Assembly (NCBI GenBank): GCA_003024175.1
Contig: MDYQ01000028.1
Span: 120,484 to 184,483 of the forward strand
Source: Planoprotostelium fungivorum
Lineage: Eukaryota > Evosea > Variosea > Cavosteliida > Cavosteliaceae
Length of the DNA stretch: 64,000 nt
Reading direction: 5' to 3'
The first letter of the stretch is position 1, and every line of letters begins with the position of its first letter. The position numbers were made by a program, and so were the translations under genes. Below, piece after piece: positions 1 through 50,954 of this stretch. The notes under the pieces were generated by a model, which had not been told where the DNA came from, made no database searches, and saw only the letters and a list, made by a program, of their open reading frames with translations.

Positions 1-1
1 C

Positions 2-856
2 TCACTTGGCCAGGGCACCGAACTTGGTGATGTCTATACCGACTGACTGTGATGCGTTGACCTCGCAGATCAAGAGGACGTCCGCGATGGTCAGATGATC
101 TCCGGTTAAGAATCTTGAAGACTTGAGTTCGGAGTCGAGACGAGTGACGATGCGTTGGACCTCTTTGAGCATGTTGCTGGAGCTGTAGCCCGACTTGGAG
201 GTGGTGTCGATGATTTTGGCGAACATGGGTTGTTGAGCTGTTGGTCTTCTTTAGAGGTCGGTCGTGCGATCATGGTGATGGTGATGTTGATGTGTGCGAT
301 GATGATGTGGATGTGATGATGATGAACATTTACCCTCCATGATGCTCCTTCCCAGACCGTAGCTCATCAACTCGTCCACCCTCTTCCTCTTCACTTTCTC
401 CTCGGGGTAAAGTGTTTCATCCAACTTGAAGCGTGACACCATGCCCTTCAGTATCTCCGCCCTGTACAAATCAGTTCCCGCCAAAATCTTCCCGCCAAAA
501 TCCTCACCCATCGAACTGATAATTCTCCGGATCTTGATCGGAGAAATAGGCCGGAACTTTACACTGCGGAGAAATTCGGATGAATAGAGGCTGGTTACCA
601 CTCTTCTTCTCCTGCGTCTGCGTACCCTGATCACGTGATCAATCTTTCATCTACACTATTGTAGATGAGGTACCTTCGCATACGTCTCAGCCAACCATGA
701 TATGTGAACTGAGTTCCTCTCTATCGGTAGATTGTGCTCCAAGGCGAACAGTGAGACAGCGAGGGAAGAGGGAACCATTGGGTTGTAGAACAGAGTCGAG
801 AATTTTGGCGGGTGAGCAAAGTGTTGGGAGGGCGGTCGATTGGTAGGTGGTGCCAT
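2..856 (-). CDS. Glutathione S-transferase-like protein, 3' end cut by window edge
   Basis: The product would conjugate glutathione to electrophiles or act in a related GST role in the cytosol. Three coding blocks are read on the minus strand. The first (856 to about 674, from an ATG) gives a thioredoxin-fold start with LFYNPMVPSS and ends at a GTACCT donor. The second (about 620 to 335) gives FGGKILAGTDLYRAEIL and a Tyr-Pro-Glu-rich helix typical of the GST linker. The third (226 to 2) contains FLTGDHLTIADVLL, the conserved N-capping/hydrophobic staple region of the GST C-terminal helical domain. The last exon has no stop inside the window, so the gene is truncated. Exact inner splice sites between 674 and about 600 are uncertain. 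Theta-like or insect-type GST is likely, but the class is not certain. Confidence 0.75.
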
Positions 857-1980: not shown

Positions 1981-2853
1981 TCCGTTCGTCTCTGAATTGC
2001 GGCCTCCTGGTGAGATATTCCGATCTCTGACAGCAGCCCGCGACCCCACACCAACCTGGCCCGGTCGGATGAAGAAGATGAGAGAGGTGAAGATCCTCTC
2101 AGCCTCAAAGATTCGAACAGCTTGCGTCGGATGTCTATCACATCCAGATTTGGAAATAGGTCTTGAATTCCGCTTATTCCAAAGATATCGATGTTGCTGT
2201 GTGTGCGAGATCGAGGCTGAGAGGTTCTCGCAGAGGTATGAGAGGAACGATGAGTCGACTACGGCGTCTGTCAACAACATGCATCTGATTTGAAAAGACA
2301 TCACCACCTGGCGGATATTTTTGATCGATTTTATCACATTCTACATTCTATATTACACCCTCTTGGACTCGTCTCTGTCGTCTCCTCCACCTGAAGGTGG
2401 AACCGCAATTGATCACGTGATCGTTCATTAAAAAGCTGGACTACAATGAGAAAGATTGACATGAAGAACGAAGGAAGAATGATTTTCTGAATTTTTACCA
2501 TTCAGTTTCTCAGCTGATCATCGAGAGAAGAAGTGCAACCACACGAGAGAGTGGTCTAACTAAACGAGGGGGAAGAGTGTATCTGTCATAACACAGTTGA
2601 CGGTCTCCTCTCTATAACATCACCCGCACAACTACAGAGCGGGTTTCATACTGCCCGCCACCGAGGTAAGAACATAGAGATAGACATGATATTCTATATC
2701 TCCTGGCAGCTTTTCGTGATCTCTGATGAATTGCAGGAGTGGGCGGTCAATATCATCACAGAGTTCACAACTCTATAGCGGCAGCGACAGTCTCTCTCAG
2801 AGATCCTCCCTGACCCCAAATACCCATTATCGTCATCTATCACGTCCATCAAC

Positions 2854-5800
2854 ATGCAATCTGGATTATGGAGTGACGAGGGACCCGTTCCCCTTCGATC
2901 CGTCTCAGTCAAGAGTCAAGTGAGGGACTTTCTCAGCGAGGTCCAAGTTTTCCAAAAGTATCATCACACCGGCGCCTCACCTCTGGAGGCGACTTTCAAG
3001 TTTCCCCTGGACTTGTTCGGAGCCCTCACCGGGTTCTCCGTCACTATCGATGGAAAGACCGTAGAAGCCAAGATCAGCACGAGATCGAAGGTGCAGGAGA
3101 CTTCACCATTGCCCAAGGACTACAGACACACAGAAGACGAAGATGAGCAGCCAGACCTCTTCAACTGTGCCATCTCCGTCCCCCCGATGAAAGAGGTGAC
3201 GCCACGATCTTCTCATTTCATTCTCAAACTCCCTGGCAGGTCGAGCTCGAGTTACGTTACGCCACCGAGCTCGTGGTCGAACACGAGGCAGCCCTCCGCT
3301 TCATCATTCCATCCGCAGTTCTATCACCCGACGGAATCGAAGGAACCACTCATACATTATCCATCGACATCGATGTCGAGCTGCCAACCGACTTCACTCT
3401 CAACTCGCCCTCCCATCAACTCACCACGACCCCCCTCGGAGATCGACACATGTCATTATCACTGTCCAAAGAGTCAAACAATCTCGAGCCCAATTTTGTC
3501 CTCCTCTTCAACATGAAGCCGTGGAGGGCTTCCACCCAACCATGGTCGGTCGTCTCCCATCATCCATCGGGCAACAACGCCGCCATCTTGGCCTTCATGC
3601 CTCAAGTCGAATCGAAAGAGGCCGAGCCCTGCGAGATCATCTTCATGGTGGACTGCTCCAACTCCATGGCATCATCTCTCAATGGTGTCCGTGATGCCCT
3701 TCAACTCTTTTTACGTTCACTCAAACCCGGAGTCCACTTCAACTTGTACACCTTCTCCCAAGACTTCACCAAGATGTCTCCCGAGTCTGTCGCCTACGAG
3801 CAGAAGACATTGGACATGGCCGTACAATTTGTAGAGAAGATGGAGATCGCCGCAGGCAAGACAGACCTCATCCGACCCCTCACCGACGTCTTCTCTGCAC
3901 CTTCCATCCGTGGCGTGCCCCGTCAGCTGTTTGTCATCACAGATGGTAACGTCCACGATACGAGAGGAGTTTGCTCCCTCATCCGCAAGAATGCATCGAA
4001 GGCCAGAGTTTTCTCTTTCGGCGTGGGCGACCGCGTCGGGCATCACCTCGTGAGTAACGGAAGAACGGAGAAACGGAAGATTGACCCCCCTCAGGTGATG
4101 GAAATGGCAAGAGCCGGTCACGGAGAGTACGAATTCGTCTCTGACAGAGAAGACTTTGAGAACAAATTGGTTCGTCAGGTAAAGAGGTCTCTCCACCCCG
4201 CTCTGAACGACCCCCACATCAAGTGGGAGGGCATAGAGGGAGTCGTGCAGACCCCCGAGGCCCTGTACGCCGTCTACAACGGTGACAGGTCGGTGAATTC
4301 CACGCGAAATTTCACTGAATTACGTCAGGCTGTTCGTGTACGCTCTCTTGCCCCGGGACATCCCTTCAGAAGCTACGGCCACATTCTCTGCCACCTCTCA
4401 CGATGGTCAGAAGATCAGCTACACGGCCAAGCTGAATCCAGCCTCGAACGGCTCCTCTGCTATTTCTGTCCTCGCCGCGAGAAACCGCATTCGAGACTTG
4501 GAAGAGGCAGACGAGCACGGCGAGTCGAAGAGAGAAGAGATCACGAGGTTGGGACTCACGTTCGGTCTCGCATCCAAATTCACTTCCTTCTCTGCCGTAG
4601 TGAGAGAGCAGCCCGTCACTCTAGAGTCTTCGATTCCTTTGGATGTCTTGAAGGCCAGCTTGGACAAGTTGGCTCAGCAGCAGCAGCAGAGCCACAACGA
4701 GATGACACCTACGAAGAAGAACCAATCGGAAGTTACGTCGGGGGCCACGACCCCTCTCAACGCCAACTCGGCCGCCTTCGTACCCAGGTGAGGGGGAGTG
4801 GCTCGTTGTAGTCTGACCCCGTGGTAGATCCGTCGTCACCATCTCTTCTCCGAAGAAGACGTACTCTGCAGAGTTTATTCTCAGTTTGAGAAACGACTAC
4901 ACGGGTATACCGACCCACATCCACACGGACATTCCCGCCGACATCATTGTCGCACCCGGGTCCAACCGAATCGATCCCAGCAAGGCTCCAAAGGTACGTA
5001 CCTTACGCACGTAACCCGACGTAACCTTGTCGTAGGTCGGACAGACCGTCTCCACGACGAAGGCTCGCGACAACAAGCCGACGCACAAGCGAGAAGGTTC
5101 TACCGGCCGTGCCGAATTGAAGAAGAGTGCGTCGGGCAGAAACTCTCTCAACGCATCGAGAGAGAACATCACTCTGCCACCTGTCGCCCCCCTCGTGCAG
5201 AGCGAGAACAGATGGATCAGACCCGAGGCCGTCGCCGTGGAGGATCTCACGTTGGATCAGATTCGCCGCAAGGTCCTCGGGTGAGTACCGTACGCACCCG
5301 ACTCTCATCTCACTCGACGTCAGTATCTTGAACAAGATGACCCTGGAGAAATTCATTCCCCTCACCGAACAATTATTAGACATTGGCTTCGACTCGATCG
5401 AGACCATTGACATGTTGATCTACGAGATGTTTGACAAGGCTGCGGTGGAGCCACACTTTTCCACCATGTACGCCACACTGTGTCTCACCTTATCGGAGAG
5501 GATCGCTCCTCTGAAGGATGACAACGGAGACGTCACGAAAGACTTCAGAAAATCTCTCATATCGAAGGCACAGGAGGAATTCACGCAGAGAAAGGAGAAG
5601 ATGGTGGTGAGTCGAGCGGATGTTCGTTGTAGACGCTCATCGTTGTAGATCGACGCGACCCTCCAGGGAGAAGAGAAGGAGGACGCAGAGAGGCTGGCCA
5701 AGTTACGTTCCCTGGGAACCGTCCGATTCATCGGAGAATTATTCAAGCAGGGAATATTAGCCGAGAGGACGATGCACGCCTGCATCGATCTACTCTTGAA

Positions 5801-7913
5801 AGAAGTCACGGCCAACAAGGAAACGAGCGAAGAGGATTACGCTTGGCTCGTCAACTTCATCACCACCACCGGTGAACTCTTGGAGCTACCTCAGCAGAAA
5901 CTGAGAGACAGGGTGACGACTCGTCCCCGTCTCCTCACCGTACTGACTCGTTGTAGATCAGAGAAATCTTCGAGCGATTGAGTACCATCACTACGGATCC
6001 GACCATTCCCCCTCGAGTCAAATTCATGCTGATGAATCTCATCGACTTGAGAGACAACGGTTGGACTCCCAGGAGGAAAGGAAACGAGGCGAAGACTCTC
6101 GCCGAGGCGCGTGCCGACGTCGAAGAAGCTTCTTCTTCCACTCCAGTGTGAGTCTCCGTCTCATCCAATGGAGACGCGTCCTAATTCCGTCAGACGTCCC
6201 AAATCTCAATCGACCGCCAACACTCCCGTGTCCCCCGCTCCATCGAAGACGAAGAAGGAGTCACGTGACAAGCTCATCAAGTCGACGTCGGCCATACCCA
6301 GGAATACGAAGGAGGTCGCTGCTGATGATGATTGGGAGACGGCACCTTCTTCGAGGAAGAAGAGCGGAAGAGGAGGAAGAGAATCTCTCCACGCTTCGTC
6401 GAACGGCTGGGAGACCGTGGGCGGGAGCCGTGGCCGCGGGGGTGAGAAATTTTCCGGAAATGTACGAGAATATTCACGGAAATTTCAGGACGTGGTGGAA
6501 GAGGAACGCCGAGAGGCGGTGGCAGCCGCTCGAATGTCAGAGAAGAACCTGCCGAGAAGAAGTCTGCCCCTGCCGTTCGCGTCAACCTCTTTGCAGCTCT
6601 TCAGGATGACGACGAGACAGCATCTTCACCTGCTCCAGTGTCCGCGATGAAGGGTAACCGAAAGGGCCTCGCTCGTTCCGACTTTGTCGTGTCGAAAGAG
6701 GGTGAGAAATTTCACGGAAAATTCGTGGAAAATTCTGATGGGAGGGTAGAGAGCGTACCCCTCAAGAAATCCGTCACGATCCGCGAGCCCGAGCCGGTTG
6801 CCAAAAAGTTGGACGATTCCCTGCGACTCATCTACGAGGAGTTTCTGTCATCAGAGGACAAGGAAGAGGCCCTTCAGTGCATTCAGGAGCTCAATCTCAA
6901 CGCAGAAGGTTCCTCCATGGCCGTGCAGCAGGCGTTCCGCGTCGCTTTAGAAGGTAGAGACAAGGACAGAGAGCAGCTCGTCAAGCTTCTATTGTCTTTC
7001 GTCGAGGAAGAGACGCTGACACAAGACGATCTCATCGACGGGTGAGTCACGTGACCGATGACGTCACGATCCGTCATCGAATAGACTGACTCGTTGTAGA
7101 TTCAGTTTATTGGCTCAGAATATCGAGGAAGATGACATGGATTATCCTCTCGCTTCGAACCACTTGGGACTCTTTATTGGAAGGATCGTCGCCGCGAACA
7201 AGTTGTCCCTCGCCTTCTTGAAGTCGGCTCTGTCCAGCATCGTGGAGTCTGGAAAGGCCATCAAGATTGCACTCGTTGTCTTGAAGAACGTCGTCAAAGA
7301 ACAGGTGCAGTGTCATCATCATCTCCATCATCACATCATCATCTTCATCATCATCATGACAACTTATCATTCAAATCAGGGAGAACAAGAGACGAACGAG
7401 CTCTACAAACGATCCGGCCTCGATCTCAGCCGCCTCGTCCGCAAGACCGACCGCGACGGTTCTCTCCTCTCCGACCTCTTAAAGAAGGACTCCCTCGACT
7501 TCCTCTTGTCCAACGAGCCCTCTGCATCTGCCAAAGACGAGGAGCTCCTGTCCTCGACTCGACCCCGTAGACAGTCCATCGTTGCACAGTCTGCCGTAGA
7601 CCAATTCGTCCTACAGCAGTCGGCCGAAGGTTTCTGGTCACTCGACCAGAAGTTCGCCGACCTCTTGAACGCCAGGCTGGGAGACCTACAGACGTCTATA
7701 CCCGAGGAGATCAAGGACAGCAGCAGCCTGTGGGCGACTCTGTTGGCCCTGGCCTTCTTAGAGGGCAACTATGGACATAAGACGGGTTGGGAGCTGCTGT
7801 CAAAGAAGGCTAGATCGTGGGTGGAAGGAGAAGTCACGAGAGCGGGAGCTTCGAGAGGGCAATTGCAAGAGGACGCACAGAATTGTCTTAAGGATTTGGA
7901 CTTGATGGCTTAG
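2854..7913 (+). CDS. VIT-VWA domain protein fused to eIF4G (PAM2, eIF4E-binding, MIF4G, MA3, W2)
   Basis: The C-terminal half is a translation initiation scaffold of the eIF4G family, which bridges the cap-binding protein eIF4E, poly(A)-binding protein and eIF4A/eIF3. The N-terminal half is a VIT plus von Willebrand A protein of the VWA5/inter-alpha-inhibitor heavy-chain type. My model has 14 exons: 2854-3195, 3240-4049, 4095-4288, 4329-4787, 4828-4993, 5036-5280, 5324-5606, 5649-5912, 5957-6147, 6194-6441, 6489-6701, 6750-7041, 7100-7304, 7380-7913. All introns are GT-AG and 40-75 bp. The summed length is 4446 nt, one unbroken frame of 1481 residues. Approximate residues: VIT 1-200; VWA 240-400 with MVDCSNSMA as the DxSxS metal site; VWA5-type C-region to 540; PAM2-like LNANSAAFVP near 592-601; YSAEFIL eIF4E motif near 612; MIF4G 735-960; RG-rich linker; MA3 1160-1300; W2 1390-1481. 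The join lies inside one exon (4329-4787). Introns 4050-4094, 6702-6749 and 7305-7379 are multiples of three without stops and could be retained. The exon starting at 5649 has a second in-frame acceptor at 5666. Confidence 0.88.
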
Positions 7914-8564
7914 AGGAGAGATGAGACGGCATCATGGACATCATCCATCGGAGAGAGAGTCAGAACCGAACGGGAATAAAAAAGTAGAATCGAACGTGGA
8001 TGATGATGGTGTGAGCGGATGCAAGATGAGAAAGAGGAGAGACCCATCTTACTTTTATGACTTTTCAGAACAAGTGGGTCAGCGATCGAGATGCATCATC
8101 GTTCGTCGTGTCAGAGAAGGATATTTGTGGAATTACTGGTTGGCACCATTGTGTAGTGGAATAAGTTTACATCTCTACAATCGAGTGGCTGTACAGTGTT
8201 ATTCATGAATACATGATGCTACACGGTAGGTGGTGTGGATGATGTAGATGTCAGTGGACAGATGAGAGGATAGAGTCAATGCATAACCATCTGGCGACGG
8301 CGTGTTCTGTACGATGACTTACCTACAGACATACCTCACTCTCAATGGAGCCTGTTGATAGGACAAAGCAAACGAAGAAAAACAAAATGAAATGAAAATG
8401 GATTGATTTTATTTCTATGTTTTTTATCGAGATTTCCATAAGAGTGGAAAAACCCCGAGGGAGAAGATCACAGAACAGCATCACACCTCCAGGTAAGAGT
8501 GTCGACTTTGCCGTCAATCGATAGAGGTCGTGACACCGGTGCTAGGTTTCTGAACCCCTCGATC
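7914..8564. other. Intergenic, 3' UTR and promoter
   Basis: No convincing gene is seen. An AATAAA-like signal lies near 7975, shortly after the eIF4G-fusion stop. The remainder is AT-richer DNA leading into the CSC1-like gene. Confidence 0.5.
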
Positions 8565-11500
8565 ATGTCTGTCCCAGACGAAAGAGATGAAGATCGTCCA
8601 GATCGAACCTCGCAATTCCTGTCCACCCTCTACATCACAACGGGTGCCTCAGTCGCCTTGTTTCTCTTCTTCATTGTAATGAGACGATTCAGACCTCACA
8701 TCTACCTCAGAAAGTGTTATATCCCCAGCGAGTGAGTGAATGTCTGAAGAGGATGACTCGCGCATCGAGAAGTGACATCTGATCGTTTCCATTCAGAGGG
8801 AGACGAACATTGGCGAGACCCGACTTCTATAAGAGTAATGGCTTCTTCAATTGGATCTACTATACCTTACGTTACGACACGGAACATCACCTGCTGCCAG
8901 CCCACGGAGGATTAGACATGGTCCTCTATCTCAACTTTCTCAAATACGCCTTCTTCCTCTTTGCCTTCTTCACTCTCTACTCTCTTCCAATCCTCATTCC
9001 AGTGTATTACAAACAGGACAAGTTCATCAATGACGAGCTGCAAAACAAGACGATCAACTCTCTTAACCTTGGGAACGTCCCCGATGGTAAGAAGAGAAGA
9101 GGCGGACGTTAAGATTGATGTCGCCACAGAATCATCCAGCATGTGGGCGACAATGGTGGCCAACATCTTGTTCTCCGTTGCAGGTGCGGACGATTCTACT
9201 CCTCTCACGTTCATCACCATCCATCCCATTCCATCATCTCATATGTGATTCCATCCAATCTGACGATGCCTCTCAGGTTTCGCCTTCCTCTATCATTATT
9301 ACGCCACTTCGGTCAAATTGAAGTTGAAAGCTGAGAAGTTGAACCGAGGCAGTCGATCAGCTCAACCTCGTACTGTCATGGTATCAGAGCTACCTATGAG
9401 CGTTGGTACCGACCGTTCTCTGAAACAGAAAATTCAAGAAATCTTCCCCGAAAATTCCATCACCGACGCCATATTGGTGAGCGATCACACGACATCATCA
9501 TCATCATCACCGTGAGACACACGAAGACATCGACTGAACCTCTCGATCAGATTCCCCACAGTGTAGAACTGAGACGCTACCAAGAGAAGAGGAAGAAGGT
9601 GTACCAAGAGCAATGCTTCGAAGAGTGCAGGAGAGCTGAAGGACAATATCCACTTCAACTGCAGAAGAAGATGAAGAGCATGGTTAACCGAAAGGGAAGC
9701 GTCGACGCTCTCGTCTACTACAAACGCAGACTCCACAAATTAGACTTGAAGATCGAGCAGATCCAGCAGGGGCTGGGGGGGTGGGCACGAAATATTGGTC
9801 CGTTGTAGATTGACGCGTCCGGTAGAGAGACGGGATTGGCCAAGCATCTGAGGAGTTGTGTCGGCTTCGTACAATTTTCTCATCCTGCCTCCGCCCAGAT
9901 GGCAGCACAGACAGTTGTCACGGGCGACTTCAGACGTCTAAAGATAACCATGGCGCCGGTGTGTCTCTCACTTGCGGAAAAATACCGGAAAAATGTGACC
10001 GTTACAGGAACCAGACGACATCATTTGGAAAAATCTTGGATTTCATTACTACGTACAACTACCAAAGATTGTCGTCACTGTCGCCCTCCTCTTACTCCTC
10101 TTCTTCTCTTGGTCTGCCCCCGTTGCCTTCTTCAACGCCATACCCAACGCCGGTAATTTTCCTCGAAATGTCCATCTACAATCCGCCTGATTCTCCCAGC
10201 GAGGTTGGGCTTCCTGCATGATTTTGCCGAGAAAAATCCGTTTCTGAACGGTATACTGACTGGTCTATTACCCACACTGGGCATCAAGATCTTCATGGCC
10301 TTACTCCCCACCATCCTGACATGTGGGCTCGTTGTAGATCGACTTTTCCTGACATGTTCCAGACATCAATTCGGTGTCATCGCACCACTCGTATTCGTCC
10401 TGGGATCGAGCCCTGCTCATTTCACTTTTTTCCTTCCTCTACATCTTTGTCTTCTTTGTAGCCATCATAGCGGGAAGTCTCAGCAGTGCCATCAAGAAGA
10501 TCAGCACGATGCCTGCGAATCAGATTCCAGACGTGAGGATGATGATGATGACGATGGATGATGACGTCATCAGTTGCTGTCGTCGACTTTGGGAGGACAG
10601 ACGACCATCTTTACGAATTACATCTTGGTCAGTATCGGTGAGCACACTCTTCATCACTTCGACGTGTCATCATCGTGACTCATCAGATCGTCACACGATC
10701 ATGTCCACATCACCTCACCATCATCACATGACGACTCTCATCATCTTCACATGACGACTCTCATCATCATCACCTTCATCATCATCATCACCTTCTTCAT
10801 CATCATCACCTTCTTCGTCATCAAGTGTTGATCTCACACAGTGGACCACCTCCTCTTCCAATCCCGTCTATTCGACATATTGACCATGACCGTGAAGAAG
10901 AGAATGTCACACTCTACCCTCGAACGAGCCGTTGCAGAAGAACCCAACCCATTCAAACTCGTCGTCAAACTCGCCAACGAGCTCCTCATCTTCTCCATCG
11001 GTGAATCCATCTACAACGTTGTAGATTGACCTCCTCAGCCTTCACCTACTCCTCTATCGGTCCCCTCGTCAACGTATTAGCCATGATTTATTTCGGCTTG
11101 GGCTTCTTTACTTCGAAGCACACTCTACTTTTCGCATACGAGCTCAAGTATGAAGGTATTTCGTTTGTTCCTATCGTTGTGTCAGCTCTCCTGTTCCCTC
11201 TCTGCACGAACCATTTGCTGATGGCTGGTGTCTTCTCTTTCAAGGTGAGCTGAATTTTCGCCGATATTTCTGTGAAATTTCGCAGAGATCTCCTGGAAGA
11301 GTCGAGAAAATTGATAGAAAATAGGATTTCCCCCCCGGCGCGAGTGTAGCCATCGCTTTATTTTGGATCGGTCTGTTGTTCTATTTTCTACTCAACAGGA
11401 GATTTCACGAGAGTTTCATGAACGTTCCCCTCACTGAATTCTGCGACACCCCGACGGGGCAGGTGCGAACGTCGTCTACAACGCATCTGAAGATGGTAAC

Positions 11501-12175: not shown

Positions 12176-12248
12176 TGGAGAACCAGGGTATCGATCCCTG
12201 TGCCCCTCGCATGCTAAGCGAGTGCTCTACCATTTGAGCTAGATCCCC
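12176..12248 (-). tRNA. tRNA-Ala (AGC)
   Basis: The 73-nt cloverleaf is read on the minus strand. The 5' acceptor strand is GGGGATC and the anticodon arm is CTCGC-TTAGCAT-GCGAG with anticodon AGC. The T arm is CAGGG-ATCGATA-CCCTG, and the 3' acceptor strand GTTCTCC is followed by discriminator A73. The G3-U70 wobble pair, the classical alanine identity element, is present. One T-T mismatch at pair 6-67 is seen. There is no intron. Downstream, CTCACCTTTTTGCC supplies an RNA polymerase III T5 terminator. An identical copy lies at 41883-41955. Confidence 0.97.
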
Positions 12249-14529: not shown

Positions 14530-15871
14530 TTAAGCGTATTGGTGGAGGTTGTAGTAGTTGTTCTTCGACTGTCTCTTCTTGTAGATGTAATAGCCAAGAC
14601 CTCCCAAAACGGCAACTCCAGCGAGAGATCCGATGACGATGCCTGCGATCTTTCCCTTGCTCATCTTGTCTCCTTCTTCCTTCTTCTCTTCTTCGGTGTG
14701 GCTGGGCTCAGTGGTCGAGCTGGTGGCCGGTGTTCCATCATCGGCGCTCAAGACTTGGATGGAGGGAAGACCTTGGGCCTTGGCCACGGTTTCAAACTTG
14801 TTGGCACCGTTCTCTTGCTTCGACTCTTCGTAAGCAGATACGAGATTGTGAGCGGCGTCGTCGGCGGTGATCTTGCCGTCAAAGAAGGTAATGACGGCCT
14901 TGATGATGCTGGCGTCTCTCTTTCCACCGATGGTGACGGTCTTCCATTCCGTGATGTTGATGCTCTCGACATTGGTCTCTACTACTGCAGCGATGAGCTT
15001 GATGAAGTCGACTTCATTGATCTCGCCCGAGAAGGTCAATTTGACCTCCTGATGGATGATTCAGATTGACATTCGAAATGATGTGAGAGAGACGAACCTT
15101 GGAGGGCTTCTCGGTGGGTTGTGGAGCCTCACTCATTGTGTTGGTTGGTTCAACGGTGGATGATGTCGGCTCATTTCCGTGAGTAGAGGTAGTGGCGGTG
15201 GTCTCATTTCCGTGAGCAGAGGTAGTAGCGAGGGTCTCATTTCCGTGAGCAGAGGTAGTAGCGGTGGTCTCATTTCCGTGAGCAGAGGTAACGGTAGTGG
15301 TCTCGTTTACAGAGGTAACGGTAGTGGTCTCGTTTACAGAGGTAGGAATGGGGACATAGGTGGAGACAGTCTCGTTTCTGGAGGTAGGAATGGGGACATA
15401 GGTGGAGACAGTCTCATTCACTGGATAGGTGGTGGGAGTTTCCGTGCTCATGGTGGATGTCGTCGAAGAACTGGGTTCTGTGGTGGAAGAGCTGGTGGTA
15501 AATGTGCTGCTGGACTCAAAGGTAGAGGGAGTGGTAGACGTGCTGGGTGCAGAGGTCTCAGTAGGGGTAGTCACATCACTGGTGGTCGTCGATGTGGTAG
15601 ACGTGCTGATAGGCGCGTTGGTAATGGCAGTGTTAGACGTGCTGGGTGCAGAGGTCTCAGTGGGGGTACTCACATCACTGGTGGTCGTCGATGTGGTAGA
15701 CGTGCTGGGTGCAGAGGTTCCGGTAGGTGTGATCACATTACTAGTGGTCGTAGTAAAGGTACTAGGGACCTCAACAGTAGAGAGAACGGTAGATGTTAGG
15801 GTCTCGGTGTCTTGTCCAAAAGAAGCCGCGAGGACTAGGGCGAAGAGGAAGATGATCGATTTGACCTGCAT
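14530..15871 (-). CDS. Mucin-like type I membrane glycoprotein
   Basis: This is a predicted cell-surface protein of 430 residues in two exons: 15871-15098 and 15048-14530, with a 49-bp intron using GTTCGT and CATCAG. Residues 1-19 (MQVKSIIFLFALVLAASFG) form a signal peptide. A long Ser/Thr-rich segment follows, dominated by TSAPSTSTTSTTTSDV-type repeats. Next come 14-residue units with NETVSTYVPIPTS and 11-residue AHGNETTATTS units with N-x-T glycosylation sites. After the intron is a compact domain of about 100 residues (VKLTFSGEINEVDFIKL to about KFETVAKAQ) that resembles a SEA-type or small extracellular domain, though I cannot name it firmly. One transmembrane helix (IAGIVIGSLAGVAVLGGLGYYI) and a short basic tail ending in YYNLHQYA complete the protein. 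The layout suggests an adhesion or glycocalyx role. Confidence 0.8.
15171..15300. repeat. 33-bp coding minisatellite
   Basis: About four tandem 33-bp copies centred on catttccgtgagcagaggta encode the AHGNETTATTS units of the mucin-like protein. Copies differ by a few bases. Confidence 0.85.
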
Positions 15872-16272
15872 CTCTTCCGATGGTGTCGCTGGAAAGAATG
15901 AGAAGCCACACAGGGAGTTGACTGCAATGTGTCACTCAATGTGGAAAGATCGCAGAAGGTCGAGTTTTTTTTTCGCTTTTGGAGGCGAAATTCGCGAAGC
16001 AGGGAGAGCAGCAGCTCCTGACGCGAATCTCTATGACACGTACATGCTGAGGTGGCGTTAGACTCTATGTGAAATCATACCTGATCCGTTGTTCTGAATA
16101 AACAAACCGAAAAACATCGACTCGAGCTGATCGTGTCTAACTCATGCACTGTGCCTTTAACCCGACCTCTCTGTCGATCGATTTCGAAATCATGTGAAAC
16201 GACGTCTGATCTGCTGAGTGTCACCGCGACGGCTCAATCATTTGGTCAGCATCGGAGAGGATCAGATCCAAC

Positions 16273-38304: not shown

Positions 38305-40873
38305 ATGGACGACATCCTGTTGGATTATTTCGAAGGTATCAACCCGGTGAATGTCAATTTAGCCCAGCTCGCTCATTTGAAAGTCAACTCCAATTTCACG
38401 GACGAGTCCGGATTCACCAGTGAGCACCTCTTTACTTCCCTTCGAATCGTTTTGCATCAAAAAATGTTATTCATCTTACATCCTTGAACATGATGATGAT
38501 GATGGTCATGCAGTTTTACACTGGGCGGTCAACTCTAGATCTATGTTCTTCGTCACTCGAATCCTATCTGTTCCAGGTGATGCACACCATCATCACTCTG
38601 ATCTCTCTTAACATTTCCATTTCCTATGGCTGATTCCAACTTTCAGGTATAAAATTGGACGCTCAAGACATTAAAGGTTGGACACCTCTTCATTACGCCG
38701 CCTCATTAGGAGATGTTGATGTCGTTCGTCTACTCATCGACGCAGCTAAACGGTGAGAGTTTTTTATTGTGATCCTCTGACCCCAACAGACAGAACGTGG
38801 ACGTACTGAACGTACGCAACAAGGACGGAAAAACTCCGGAACAATACGCCGCCGCCGGTCTCTTCCCGCAGTTCAGAAAGTGAGCGTTGTAGACGGACGA
38901 TCACGTGACTCACACGGTCAGACCTTCTGTCTCTCATCGTCTGATGCACGAGTCGATGTCGATGGACAGTGATGATGATGGCAGCAGCTTCGGTCTCATC
39001 ACCTCGAAGCTTCCCGCCAACAAGGGAGGTATCCTCATGTCCGGAAGCTTCTTCGAAACTTCATCACCCAGTAGTACCCTCAGGATACCTCAGGGAGTTT
39101 TCTTTGAGAATTCTGGCCCGAATCCATCTGTGGAACCGGATAAATCGGATAAATCGGATAAACCGGAAGAACCGGTCAGTCCATCCACCCTCGTAGAGCC
39201 GGAAAAATCCACCGACAGATCACCCGGAAAATCGACAGAAATCTCCACTCCCTCCCCCACCCCCACCCCACTACAACCCGCCGCTTTTCTCCCGCCAAAA
39301 TCACCCATCGCCCTCCGTCTCCAAGCTTGGAACGCCAAGGTACAATCTACGGCCGAAAAGCCCATCGTACACAGTCCCCCTCCACAGAAGAAGACAAATT
39401 CCTTTCAGAAGGTGGACGTCAAAGCTCTGAAAGAAACGATGCTGGCCAAGCAGCAGGCGGCGAGCCCACCTCCGATGAAACCTCCGGTGAATTTCGTGGA
39501 GATTTAGAGGAATTTTCGACTTATGGGGTACAGAGGGCTTCTGTGGAGGATCAGGGACCCACGAAGGGTAGTCCGACGACGTTGAGTCGAACGACGCATT
39601 CGAATGCGACTGCTGGCTCTCCGAGGCCGCCGAGGCCACCCAGACATGACATAGAGATCGGATCCAGGCCCAGCTTGGAGTTCATAAGATCTTCAATGGA
39701 AGCGGCACAAAAGATCGAGACGGCACAAAAGATCGAGAGGGATGAGACGGCTCAAACGATTGAGACGGCACAGAAGGATGAGACGGCACAGAAGATCGAA
39801 ACGGCACAAAAGATTGAGACGGTACAGAAGGATGAGACGGTGCAACAGATCGAGACGGTACAGAAGGATGAGACGGCACAAACGATTGAGCCCATACAAC
39901 GACAATTGGAATCGTCCGCATCTCGTGAGAATCGACCGAATCGTCCCAATCGAGATATGGAGGGGGTGAGTCCGTTCCCGCCATTTTTCACGGAAACTCA
40001 CCCCACCAGGTCCGTGAGGCTGCCGCTCGCCTTCGGCAGATACGAAAAGAGCTCAGATCCCCGAAAGATAATTCTTCCGATTCTCCGGCCGATTCACTGA
40101 ACGGCTCCACCGTCACCCTGTCGACATCTACGTCGACATCCACTCCTCCCGCCTCCCCCTCCAGCTCCTTTTTTGAAGCCCGCCGGAGTCAACGAAAGTC
40201 CTTCAGGCAGTCCGTACAATTTTCCTTCTTGGAGTTTCTCATGATGGTTCCCGCCGAAACAAAATCCCCCGCAGAAACAAAATCTCACGCATCCAATCGA
40301 TCTTTCTTATCTCATTCATCGACGATATCGGTCATACCTCAATACACGACGAGCGTCATGATTAGGCAAGAGTCTCAGACGATCAGTGGAAAAAAGTCGC
40401 AGGATAAGAAGAAGAAGAAGGTGAGAATCGTTTTGTTTTTAAGAAATAATGAAGAGTGCAGGGAGAAGGTAAGAAAGATTCTGAATCGAAGACGGGTGAG
40501 AAAAGTAGATGAAATTTCGATCTGACATGTGTACACAGCCGTCAGTCTTCCCGCGCTGTCACCACAGACAAAGAGATCGGCCAGCAGTCCCGCACTCTCT
40601 TCGCCTCCGAACGATCCGTCCATCTATTACCGGAGGTGACGGACTACAACGTTGTAGAGGGACGTACCGATACGTAACAGGATGATCAACGTGAACCGAA
40701 ATTCGGTGAGCAAGCTGAGTCAGCACTTGGTCAAACCTTCGGCGGCTCCTTCACAAGTGAGCGTTGTAGACGGTGAAGGTACTGAACAGAGAAGGTGTCA
40801 AGTGAATCGAGGAGGAAATTTGATGAGAAGATGTTTCAATTGGATGAGGACAAGTTGTAGAATGTATTCATAG
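38305..40873 (+). CDS. Ankyrin-repeat protein with long disordered, repeat-bearing tail
   Basis: From ATG 38305 (good context, cgccATGG) the protein begins MDDILLDYFEGINPVNVN. Small exons then encode ankyrin repeats: VLHWAVNSRSMFFVTRIL, GWTPLHYAASLGDVDVVRLL and NKDGKTPEQYAAAGLFPQF. The rest is low-complexity: a Lys-Ser-Asp block (PDKSDKSDKPEEP), Pro-rich segments, and a tandem block of IETAQK-type units (39712-39895). Further on are Ser/Thr-rich stretches and a basic QDKKKKK segment. The last exons give NRNSVSKLSQHLVKPS and end CRMYS near 40873. Exon borders from 39300 on are ambiguous because two frames stay open, so the tail sequence is tentative. A scaffold role is likely; nothing points to a specific partner. 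Confidence 0.6.
39712..39895. repeat. 15/18-bp coding minisatellite
   Basis: Units such as gagacggcacaaaagatc and gagacggcacagaaggat alternate through about ten copies and encode IETAQK / DETAQK / DETVQQ units. All units keep the frame (15 or 18 bp). Confidence 0.85.
40644..40657. repeat. 14-bp palindrome near the end of the ankyrin gene
   Basis: CTACAACGTTGTAG, the same perfect palindrome as at 13887. It lies in an intron-like stretch between coding blocks. Confidence 0.95.
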
Positions 40874-41882: not shown

Positions 41883-41955
41883 TGGAGAACCAGGGTATCG
41901 ATCCCTGTGCCCCTCGCATGCTAAGCGAGTGCTCTACCATTTGAGCTAGATCCCC
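41883..41955 (-). tRNA. tRNA-Ala (AGC), second identical copy
   Basis: The 73-nt sequence is identical to the copy at 12176-12248, including anticodon AGC, the G3-U70 pair and discriminator A. The identity covers 93 bp (41869-41961 versus 12162-12254), taking in the downstream CTCACCTTTTTGCC terminator and 6 bp upstream. Beyond that the flanks differ. Confidence 0.97.
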
Positions 41956-49624: not shown

Positions 49625-50557
49625 TCAAACGGGGGTGGGCTTGCTGGCCGGCACGGCACCGTTGGTGCTTCCGCTCTTCTTCTTGTTGCTGTATGCGTTG
49701 GCTGGAAGGGCGATGGCGGCAATCTCTCTGTCATTGTGGAAGATCTCGGGGTGGTTGGGTGCGTCTGGAATGGTGTCCGCGATGTAACCCTCTGTGTAAG
49801 GCAGGGCCGAGCGGAATGCAAAGACGGTCATGGCTCCAAAGACACACTTGGCCAGGACGTCCAAGATGCAGAACCACAAGTGCTCGTAATCGACTGAGAT
49901 GATGTAACCTCCGTCGGTGAGACCCCAGCAGATGGGGTAGACGAGCCAGAGGACGATGAGCCATGAACATTGGAAGGTGTAGGCCTTGCGGGTGTGCTCG
50001 TTGAGGTACTTTCTGTAGTGAATGGCGATGAGGTACAGGATGGGGAGGAAGGCCAGACATCCCATTCCGAACCAAATCCAAGTGGGACCTCTTCTAACAG
50101 ACAGACCTCCAAAGAGTCCGGTGATGATCATGACTTCATCCAGAGCGAGGGCGAGGAATATGAGGGTGTGACCTACACCGGCGAGACTGGAGAGTTCGAA
50201 GAGGAGGAGGGGGGTTGTGATGGCCCAGTCGATGTATCGGGCGTAGTAAAATTGTCTTCCATTCTCCTTTCTGACGAATCCCTGTTGGTATGCCATAGAC
50301 ATGTATGCTGTGGCCGCCACTGAGCATATGATGACGTTGACCACAGAGAACTTCCTGATCTTCTCGGTTCTGGCTCGAATGGCCGAGATAAAGAAGGCCG
50401 CGGCGGAAATGACCATGATTCCAAATGTGACCCATAAGAAGACGATACCGGGTGTGTTGGTATTGTTGTATTCAGCGTTAGGGGCATAGTTTGCCCCTGG
50501 AGTAATGACAGAGCCACCTGCTGGTACGACTCCTACAATGCCTTGATTATCTGCCAT
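49625..50557 (-). CDS. Microbial (type I) rhodopsin, fungal-type, probable light-driven proton pump
   Basis: This is a seven-helix retinal protein of 310 residues encoded in one uninterrupted exon (ATG 50557, MADNQGIVGVVPAGGS). Helix C has RYIDWAITTPLLLFEL: the Arg82, Asp85 and Thr89 equivalents of bacteriorhodopsin are present, and the Asp96 proton donor is replaced by Glu. Helix D has LALDEVMIITG, retaining the Asp115 equivalent. Helix G has YEHLWFCILDVLAKCVFG, with the Glu204, Asp212 and retinal-binding Lys216 equivalents. The motif set DTE predicts outward proton pumping. WGLTDGGYIISVD and the ITTPLLL wording fit the fungal/eukaryotic clade. The C-terminal tail is Ser/Lys/Pro-rich (NKKKSGSTNG). 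An in-frame extension to 50671 starts with TTG and is probably 5' UTR. Confidence 0.93.
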   Translation of the reverse strand: MADNQGIVGVVPAGGSVITPGANYAPNAEYNNTNTPGIVFLWVTFGIMVISAAAFFISAIRARTEKIRKFSVVNVIICSVAATAYMSMAYQQGFVRKENGRQFYYARYIDWAITTPLLLFELSSLAGVGHTLIFLALALDEVMIITGLFGGLSVRRGPTWIWFGMGCLAFLPILYLIAIHYRKYLNEHTRKAYTFQCSWLIVLWLVYPICWGLTDGGYIISVDYEHLWFCILDVLAKCVFGAMTVFAFRSALPYTEGYIADTIPDAPNHPEIFHNDREIAAIALPANAYSNKKKSGSTNGAVPASKPTPV

Positions 50558-50954
50558 ATCTGTTTCGTGTGTATAGCGTGAGTGTTCGTTGTTCGTGTGT
50601 TGAGGATGATGTCCCGAAGCGTGGGCGTATGATGATGAGCTGCAGCCTCTCTGTTGTTTGTATCTGTCCAATGGTATACCCGAGAAATTTCCTTACCGTG
50701 GATTCGGGTTGGGAGTCCGCCCGACAACTACCCGAACCGTTACCTCTTTCGATGTTTTAGATGATTGGCGATCAGACTCAGAGAAGAGAGGTCTAATCGA
50801 CTCCCTGACCCTCTCGAGTTGAGTGGAGAGGAGGTGGATCGTGAAGAAGAGATGAAGGATGAGGTGACGTGGGCGGAAAACCTGGAGAAAAATCGGTATC
50901 ATCTGCTAATCCCTGTCTCTTAGAATACCGTGAGTGTTGGTATTCGCAGAGAAG

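Follow-up and report, generated by a model that had tools for sequence, protein, structure and literature searches.

Does the reading frame that joins a VIT-VWA protein to the translation factor eIF4G in the amoebozoan Planoprotostelium fungivorum (class Variosea) encode a single protein and, if so, how are its two parts combined? The frame lies in a stretch of 64,000 nucleotides (the window), taken from contig MDYQ01000028.1 (C216 in our numbering, 184,483 bases) of a genome of 36.9 Mb in 471 contigs. Cap-dependent translation has eIF4G as its central scaffold, and we know of no settled function for VWA5A-type VIT-VWA proteins. A first-pass annotation of the window had described an N-terminal VIT-VWA module placed before an eIF4G that ends in a W2 domain. 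The joining of the two in one polypeptide is strongly supported by the sequence comparisons reported here, but the picture of an N-terminal module is not, as the C-terminal domain also belongs to the VWA5A side. With a probability of about 80%, we read the locus as one gene for one protein of about 164 kDa, in which an eIF4G core sits in the linker of a VWA5A-type protein and would serve as an eIF4F scaffold, with the VWA5A part as a putative docking shell.

The coding region, rebuilt from the sequence, has 14 exons and 13 GT-AG introns of 40–75 nt (Table 1). Its exons sum to 4446 nt and, as described previously, run continuously from VIT-VWA into eIF4G without an internal stop; the earlier count of 1482 stop-free codons is correct in length only, codon 1482 being the TAG stop, and the product comprises 1481 amino acids (163.8 kDa). 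The database entry for the gene, P0001 (PROFUN_05142, annotated as "hypothetical protein"), is the same gene as our model minus six residues at the intron 5607-5648. Because four related proteins (P0002–P0005) carry residues at this point, the 42-nt intron of the rebuilt model is favoured over P0001, in agreement with the splice choice of the first-pass annotation. A codon-and-splice predictor, trained on the same gene and hence not independent, runs a single gene across the junction, in a model that reaches too far on either side, running into the next gene, and that skips one intron. The codon score at the junction (codons 545–640), calculated with the gene's own codons, is 0.337 per codon, equal to the gene mean of 0.333.

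Between the VIT-VWA core and the C-terminal domain, the protein carries the PAM2-like motif LNANSAAFVP, the eIF4E-binding-type motif YSAEFIL, MIF4G and MA3, all of them already annotated and found here by Pfam or in the sequence, and their order is that usual for eIF4G. The best matches of its MIF4G domain among solved chains are eIF4G1, eIF4G2 and eIF4GII. The pattern L[NS]..[AS]..F.P, composed after the PAM2-like motifs had been seen, turns up in 6 of 2000 shuffled versions of the fused protein and in 11 of the 329 proteins examined (314 from searches and 15 models from the P. fungivorum genome, a set that is not random), namely in five fused proteins and six others. Five of these six are named fungal eIF4Gs (P0073, P0081, P0100, P0101, P0197), where the motif, LNANSTAFVP in P0081, stands 285–579 residues ahead of YDR.FLL/M, compared to 22 residues between the PAM2-like and eIF4E-type motifs in the P. 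fungivorum protein. The sixth match, PDLSPASGNFEPF in P0044, looks like chance. As the PAM2-like motif precedes the eIF4E motif in the five fungal eIF4Gs, we assign it to the eIF4G side of the fusion; judged by this motif, the eIF4G part probably starts at residue 592 or earlier.

The arrangement of the fusion is revealed by its C-terminal domain. W2, the earlier assignment, is ruled out by Pfam, which gives no W2 match at E ≤ 0.1 for the full-length protein and none at E ≤ 10 for its C-terminal piece, by profile matches of the VWA5A type, and by comparison with eIF4G C-termini. A profile of the fused proteins' C-terminal domain has its matches in VWA5 and other VIT-VWA proteins, in most cases close to the C-terminus, and matches no MIF4G protein outside the fused set at E 0.001. 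When 44 such domains were aligned by hhalign with the last 170 residues of two PARP4 proteins, the probability was 89.6 (E 1.9e-6, 57 columns); with the last 260 residues of seven eIF4Gs it was 0.2. According to PMC10450202, the only human protein region moderately resembling the MVP-interacting domain of human PARP4 (MVP, major vault protein) is one of VWA5A. On these profile comparisons, the domain is that of VWA5A-type VIT-VWA proteins, distant kin of the C-terminus of the vault protein PARP4. A solved-structure search with the last exon returned a single weak hit (E 0.059) of no relevance. Of the proteins examined, 67 have a VIT-VWA core and, after it, the C-terminal domain, 7 of them fused and 60 unfused; the gap between core and domain is 760–1154 amino acids in the fused proteins (n = 7) and has a median of 146 (32–799, n = 60) in the unfused ones, none of which contains MIF4G. 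Since the C-terminal domain comes from the VWA5A side, the eIF4G core is nested in a VWA5A-type protein of which both shell halves are kept.

Compared with known systems, the fused protein thus shares with VWA5A-type proteins the VIT domain, VWA domain, core part and C-terminal domain in identical order and differs in the long gap, filled by the eIF4G core. From eIF4G it differs in the absence of W2, in the VIT-VWA region in front and in the VWA5A C-terminal domain behind; to our knowledge, the W2 of eIF4G is of animal type, absent in plants and fungi and not universal. The VIT-VWA region is also that of PARP4 (PDB chain 11jf_P, E 2.2e-32), to which the C-terminal domain is distantly related, whereas BRCT and the PARP catalytic domain are, like W2, absent among the Pfam matches of the whole fused protein.

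A VIT search of the P. fungivorum genome gave 14 matches, one of them the fused gene, and 12 other loci constitute an expanded set (on C32, C90, C111, C460, C141, C388, C330, C211, C461 and C331). In approximate gene models, 10 of the 12 listed loci show the C-terminal domain and none shows MIF4G or MA3. In the VIT-VWA tree, 8 of the 9 such loci included cluster together and separately from the fused protein, and the ninth has a very long branch.

The same layout of VIT-VWA, eIF4G core and C-terminal domain is present in at least seven database proteins (P0001–P0005, P0198 and P0199), with Pfam scanned here for P0004, P0005, P0198 and P0199 and precomputed for P0002 and P0003. The protein search is word-based and misses known members: P0198 and P0199 are outside the best 120 of 130 matches of the search that gave P0001–P0005, and P0001, P0003 and P0004 are outside the best 120 of 302 matches of the search that gave P0198 and P0199, hence counts of fused proteins hold among the matches listed. 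A search with P0005 yielded no further fused protein among 79 matches. Identity to the P. fungivorum protein is 58% for P0002, 57% for P0003, 47% for P0004 and 33% for P0005; P0198 and P0199 are 47% and 46% identical to P0005 over about one third of its length, and the P0199 sequence stops inside the C-terminal domain. P0004 and P0005 have names given by Trinity, an RNA assembler, with the label 'ORF type complete' (ORF, open reading frame). The contigs of P0002 and P0003, of 4620 and 4606 bases, carry 1454 codons and leave no space for 13 introns, which suggests that both derive from complementary DNA. Among the 329 proteins, profiles matched VIT-VWA in 175, MIF4G in 159 and both in exactly 7, the fused proteins, which are also alone among the MIF4G proteins in having the VWA5A C-terminal domain.

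Trees were calculated from hand-picked rows, and P0001, being the same gene as our model, was left out of them and of the profile searches. In the VIT-VWA tree (52 rows), the seven fused proteins form one clade with a Shimodaira-Hasegawa-like approximate likelihood ratio (SH-aLRT) support of 99 by a quick method. The MIF4G tree (38 rows) and the combined MIF4G and MA3 tree (20 rows) group the fused proteins together with a further protein, P0006, with support values of 94/89 and 91/89. Taken together, the nesting of eIF4G in a VIT-VWA protein in some amoebae is very probably that of a real single gene.

Could the locus nevertheless give rise to two products, a VIT-VWA protein and an eIF4G starting at Met574, besides or instead of the fusion? 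No ATG had been seen from the VWA part up to the eIF4E motif, and the first had been placed at 5338; there is an in-frame ATG at 4702, before the PAM2-like motif, and the next one is at 5337. The earlier notion that an ATG after 4787 would speak for a separate eIF4G holds insofar as a candidate exists, and fails in its place, as 4702 precedes the end of exon 4. This ATG has a purine at –3, a TGA right behind the donor site would end the VIT-VWA part upon retention of the following intron, and P0005 has a Met three columns away, several fused proteins having one elsewhere between the VWA part and MIF4G. In the Met574 column itself, however, Met is missing from all six other fused proteins; two relatives carry transcript names with complete frames; no AATAAA, ATTAAA or TATAAA occurs on the forward strand in 2801-7974, the first such hexamer being at 7975; and with the VWA5A C-terminal domain following eIF4G, a VIT-VWA product made separately would be left without that domain, making a clean split implausible. 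The nested domain and the relatives outweigh the ATG at 4702, so two products are unlikely, and a minor second product may accompany the fusion. An assembly or gene-prediction artefact, which would fit a P. fungivorum gene known from genomic DNA alone, is hardly credible for a layout that recurs in six other database proteins of one VIT-VWA clade, two of them with transcript names; for the same reason, the assembly error in the junction exon considered in the first-pass annotation is very unlikely.

Alternatively, the shell might dock eIF4F to vaults by means of its C-terminal domain, a relative of the MVP-interacting domain of PARP4. The hhalign link to the C-termini of two PARP4 proteins is in line with this idea, as are Dictyostelium vaults, which enclose ribosomes according to PMC13100048. 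In contrast, none of three vault families (PF11978, PF01505, PF17795) was found in the genome in a search made without positive control; the conserved Arg in the patch of PARP4 has no counterpart in VWA5A, as stated in PMC10450202; the C-terminal domain also occurs in environmental VIT-VWA proteins of seemingly bacterial look; and the terms eIF4G, initiation factor and von Willebrand have no occurrence in the main text of PMC13100048. With 0 of 3 vault families found, vault docking is rejected as the main explanation and retained as a minor rival, which we regard as quite improbable.

Several observations weigh against a single nested protein that works as an eIF4F scaffold, in addition to the purely genomic origin of the P. 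fungivorum sequence. P0006 (827 amino acids, MIF4G and MA3, without VIT-VWA) belongs to one MIF4G group with the fused proteins; a clade of fused proteins without P0006 is not rejected by the approximately unbiased (AU) test (p 0.298 and 0.271), yet appears in just 10% and 2% of bootstrap trees, and P0006 may have lost VIT-VWA secondarily, be an incomplete sequence or represent an unfused sister. The eIF4E-binding form before MIF4G is Y-x4-L-hydrophobic, and YSAEFIL has Ile in place of Leu; among the fused proteins, Tyr is present in 6 of 7 (missing in P0005), P0002 and P0003 have Q at the end, and the strict form is found in P0198 and P0199, the two proteins from which the PAM2 pattern, present in the other five, is missing. 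The VWA metal site, correctly annotated as intact here (DCSNS), is not so in general: DxSxS is intact in four of seven (the P. fungivorum protein, P0005, P0198 and P0199), altered to DRSST in P0002 and P0003, and lost in P0004. A metal-dependent tether is therefore not general, and tethering of the scaffold by a ligand bound at this site is possible on the motif found. Finally, the presence of other eIF4G-like genes means that the fused gene need not be a general factor.

At least two such genes, on C116 and C449, have eIF4E-type motifs, and their models pass the Pfam cut-off for MIF4G and stay below it for MA3; the fused gene is therefore not the genome's sole eIF4G-like gene. Their MIF4G branch lengths are 2.81 and 1.59, versus 0.44 for the fused gene, suggesting that the MIF4G of the latter is the least divergent of the three, with the caveat that the C116 and C449 models are approximate and their flaws may lengthen branches. 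Given a further MIF4G match on C161 and MA3 loci on C452, C149 and C96, this count of eIF4G-like genes is a minimum; a MIF4G gene on C410 looks like UPF2. The genome also shows eIF4E matches on seven contigs and two MLLE matches.

Returning to the nested scaffold, its eIF4G core would, from the known roles of the motifs, connect to the cap via eIF4E and to poly(A) via PABP (poly(A)-binding protein), and MIF4G together with MA3 would bind eIF4A and eIF3. At about even odds, and more loosely deduced, the VWA5A shell may dock this scaffold to a partner, serving as a signal for localisation or complex assembly; contact would be made by VWA, with the metal site used in some species and not in others. 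Only tentatively can one go further and picture, for a group of amoebae, the eIF4G that has diverged least, and that may be the chief cap-dependent scaffold, as permanently held between the halves of a VWA5A/vault-PARP-like receptor and coupling initiation to a docking structure. We know of no such built-in localisation of eIF4F elsewhere, and among open-licence papers we found none describing a VIT-VWA/eIF4G fusion.

Table 1. Features of the fused gene and its protein, in window positions.
Feature	Residues	Position	Strand	Basis or remark
Whole coding region	1-1481	2854..7913	+	14 exons, PROFUN_05142
Exons 1-7		2854-3195, 3240-4049, 4095-4288, 4329-4787, 4828-4993, 5036-5280, 5324-5606	+	sequence
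Exons 8-14		5649-5912, 5957-6147, 6194-6441, 6489-6701, 6750-7041, 7100-7304, 7380-7913	+	sequence
VIT domain	14-121	2893..3260	+	Pfam PF08487, E 2e-16
VWA domain (VWA_3)	246-398	3633..4136	+	Pfam PF13768, E 1e-26
VWA metal-site motif D-C-S-N-S, DxSxS intact	252-256	3651..3665	+	sequence
Remaining VWA5A-type core, broken by intron 4289-4328; then linker	to 544 (core)	4137..4614	+	profile match
In-frame ATG between VWA part and PAM2	Met574	4702..4704	+	sequence; position unconserved in relatives
PAM2-like motif LNANSAAFVP	592-601	4756..4785	+	pattern; possible binding of PABP MLLE
Intron within junction, 40 nt		4788..4827	+	retention leads to TGA at 4789-4791, ending the VIT-VWA part
eIF4E-binding-type motif YSAEFIL	614-620	4862..4882	+	sequence
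MIF4G domain	735-955	5267..6058	+	Pfam PF02854, E 1.8e-43
MA3 domain	1165-1269	6827..7199	+	Pfam PF02847, E 2e-14
VWA5A-type C-terminal domain, not W2	1376-1459 of 1481	7593..7844	+	profile comparison
AATAAA		7975..7980	+	sole AATAAA/ATTAAA/TATAAA on this strand in 2801-8300

Elsewhere in the window, an RSN1_TM match (PF13967, E 1.7e-16) at 8783-9112 on the forward strand marks the next gene downstream, which is presumably of the CSC1/TMEM63 type. An unbroken frame of 355 codons at 49628-50692 (reverse strand) matches Pfam PF01036, microbial (type I) rhodopsin, with E 5.6e-40; it contains DWAITTPLLLFE as well as a Lys in the region of the last helix, which we take to resemble opsins of the fungal proton-pump type. 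Two tRNA genes with equal Rfam scores of 51.7 bits lie about 30 kb apart, at 12176-12248 and 41883-41955 (reverse strand). Tandem repeats at 39703-39890 (18/54 bp) and 15170-15751 (33, 27, 42, 99 and 63 bp) overlap long open frames at 39162-40097 (forward) and 15017-15931 (reverse), neither of which has a Pfam match at E 0.01.

A protein in which eIF4G is nested within a VWA5A-type shell offers a handle on both, as what the shell binds could be read from what reaches eIF4F. It would show that a multi-domain core can be tolerated in the linker of another protein and retained over long divergence (down to 33% identity), and the amoeba may provide a natural setting in which to test whether translation can be tied to a particular place or complex.

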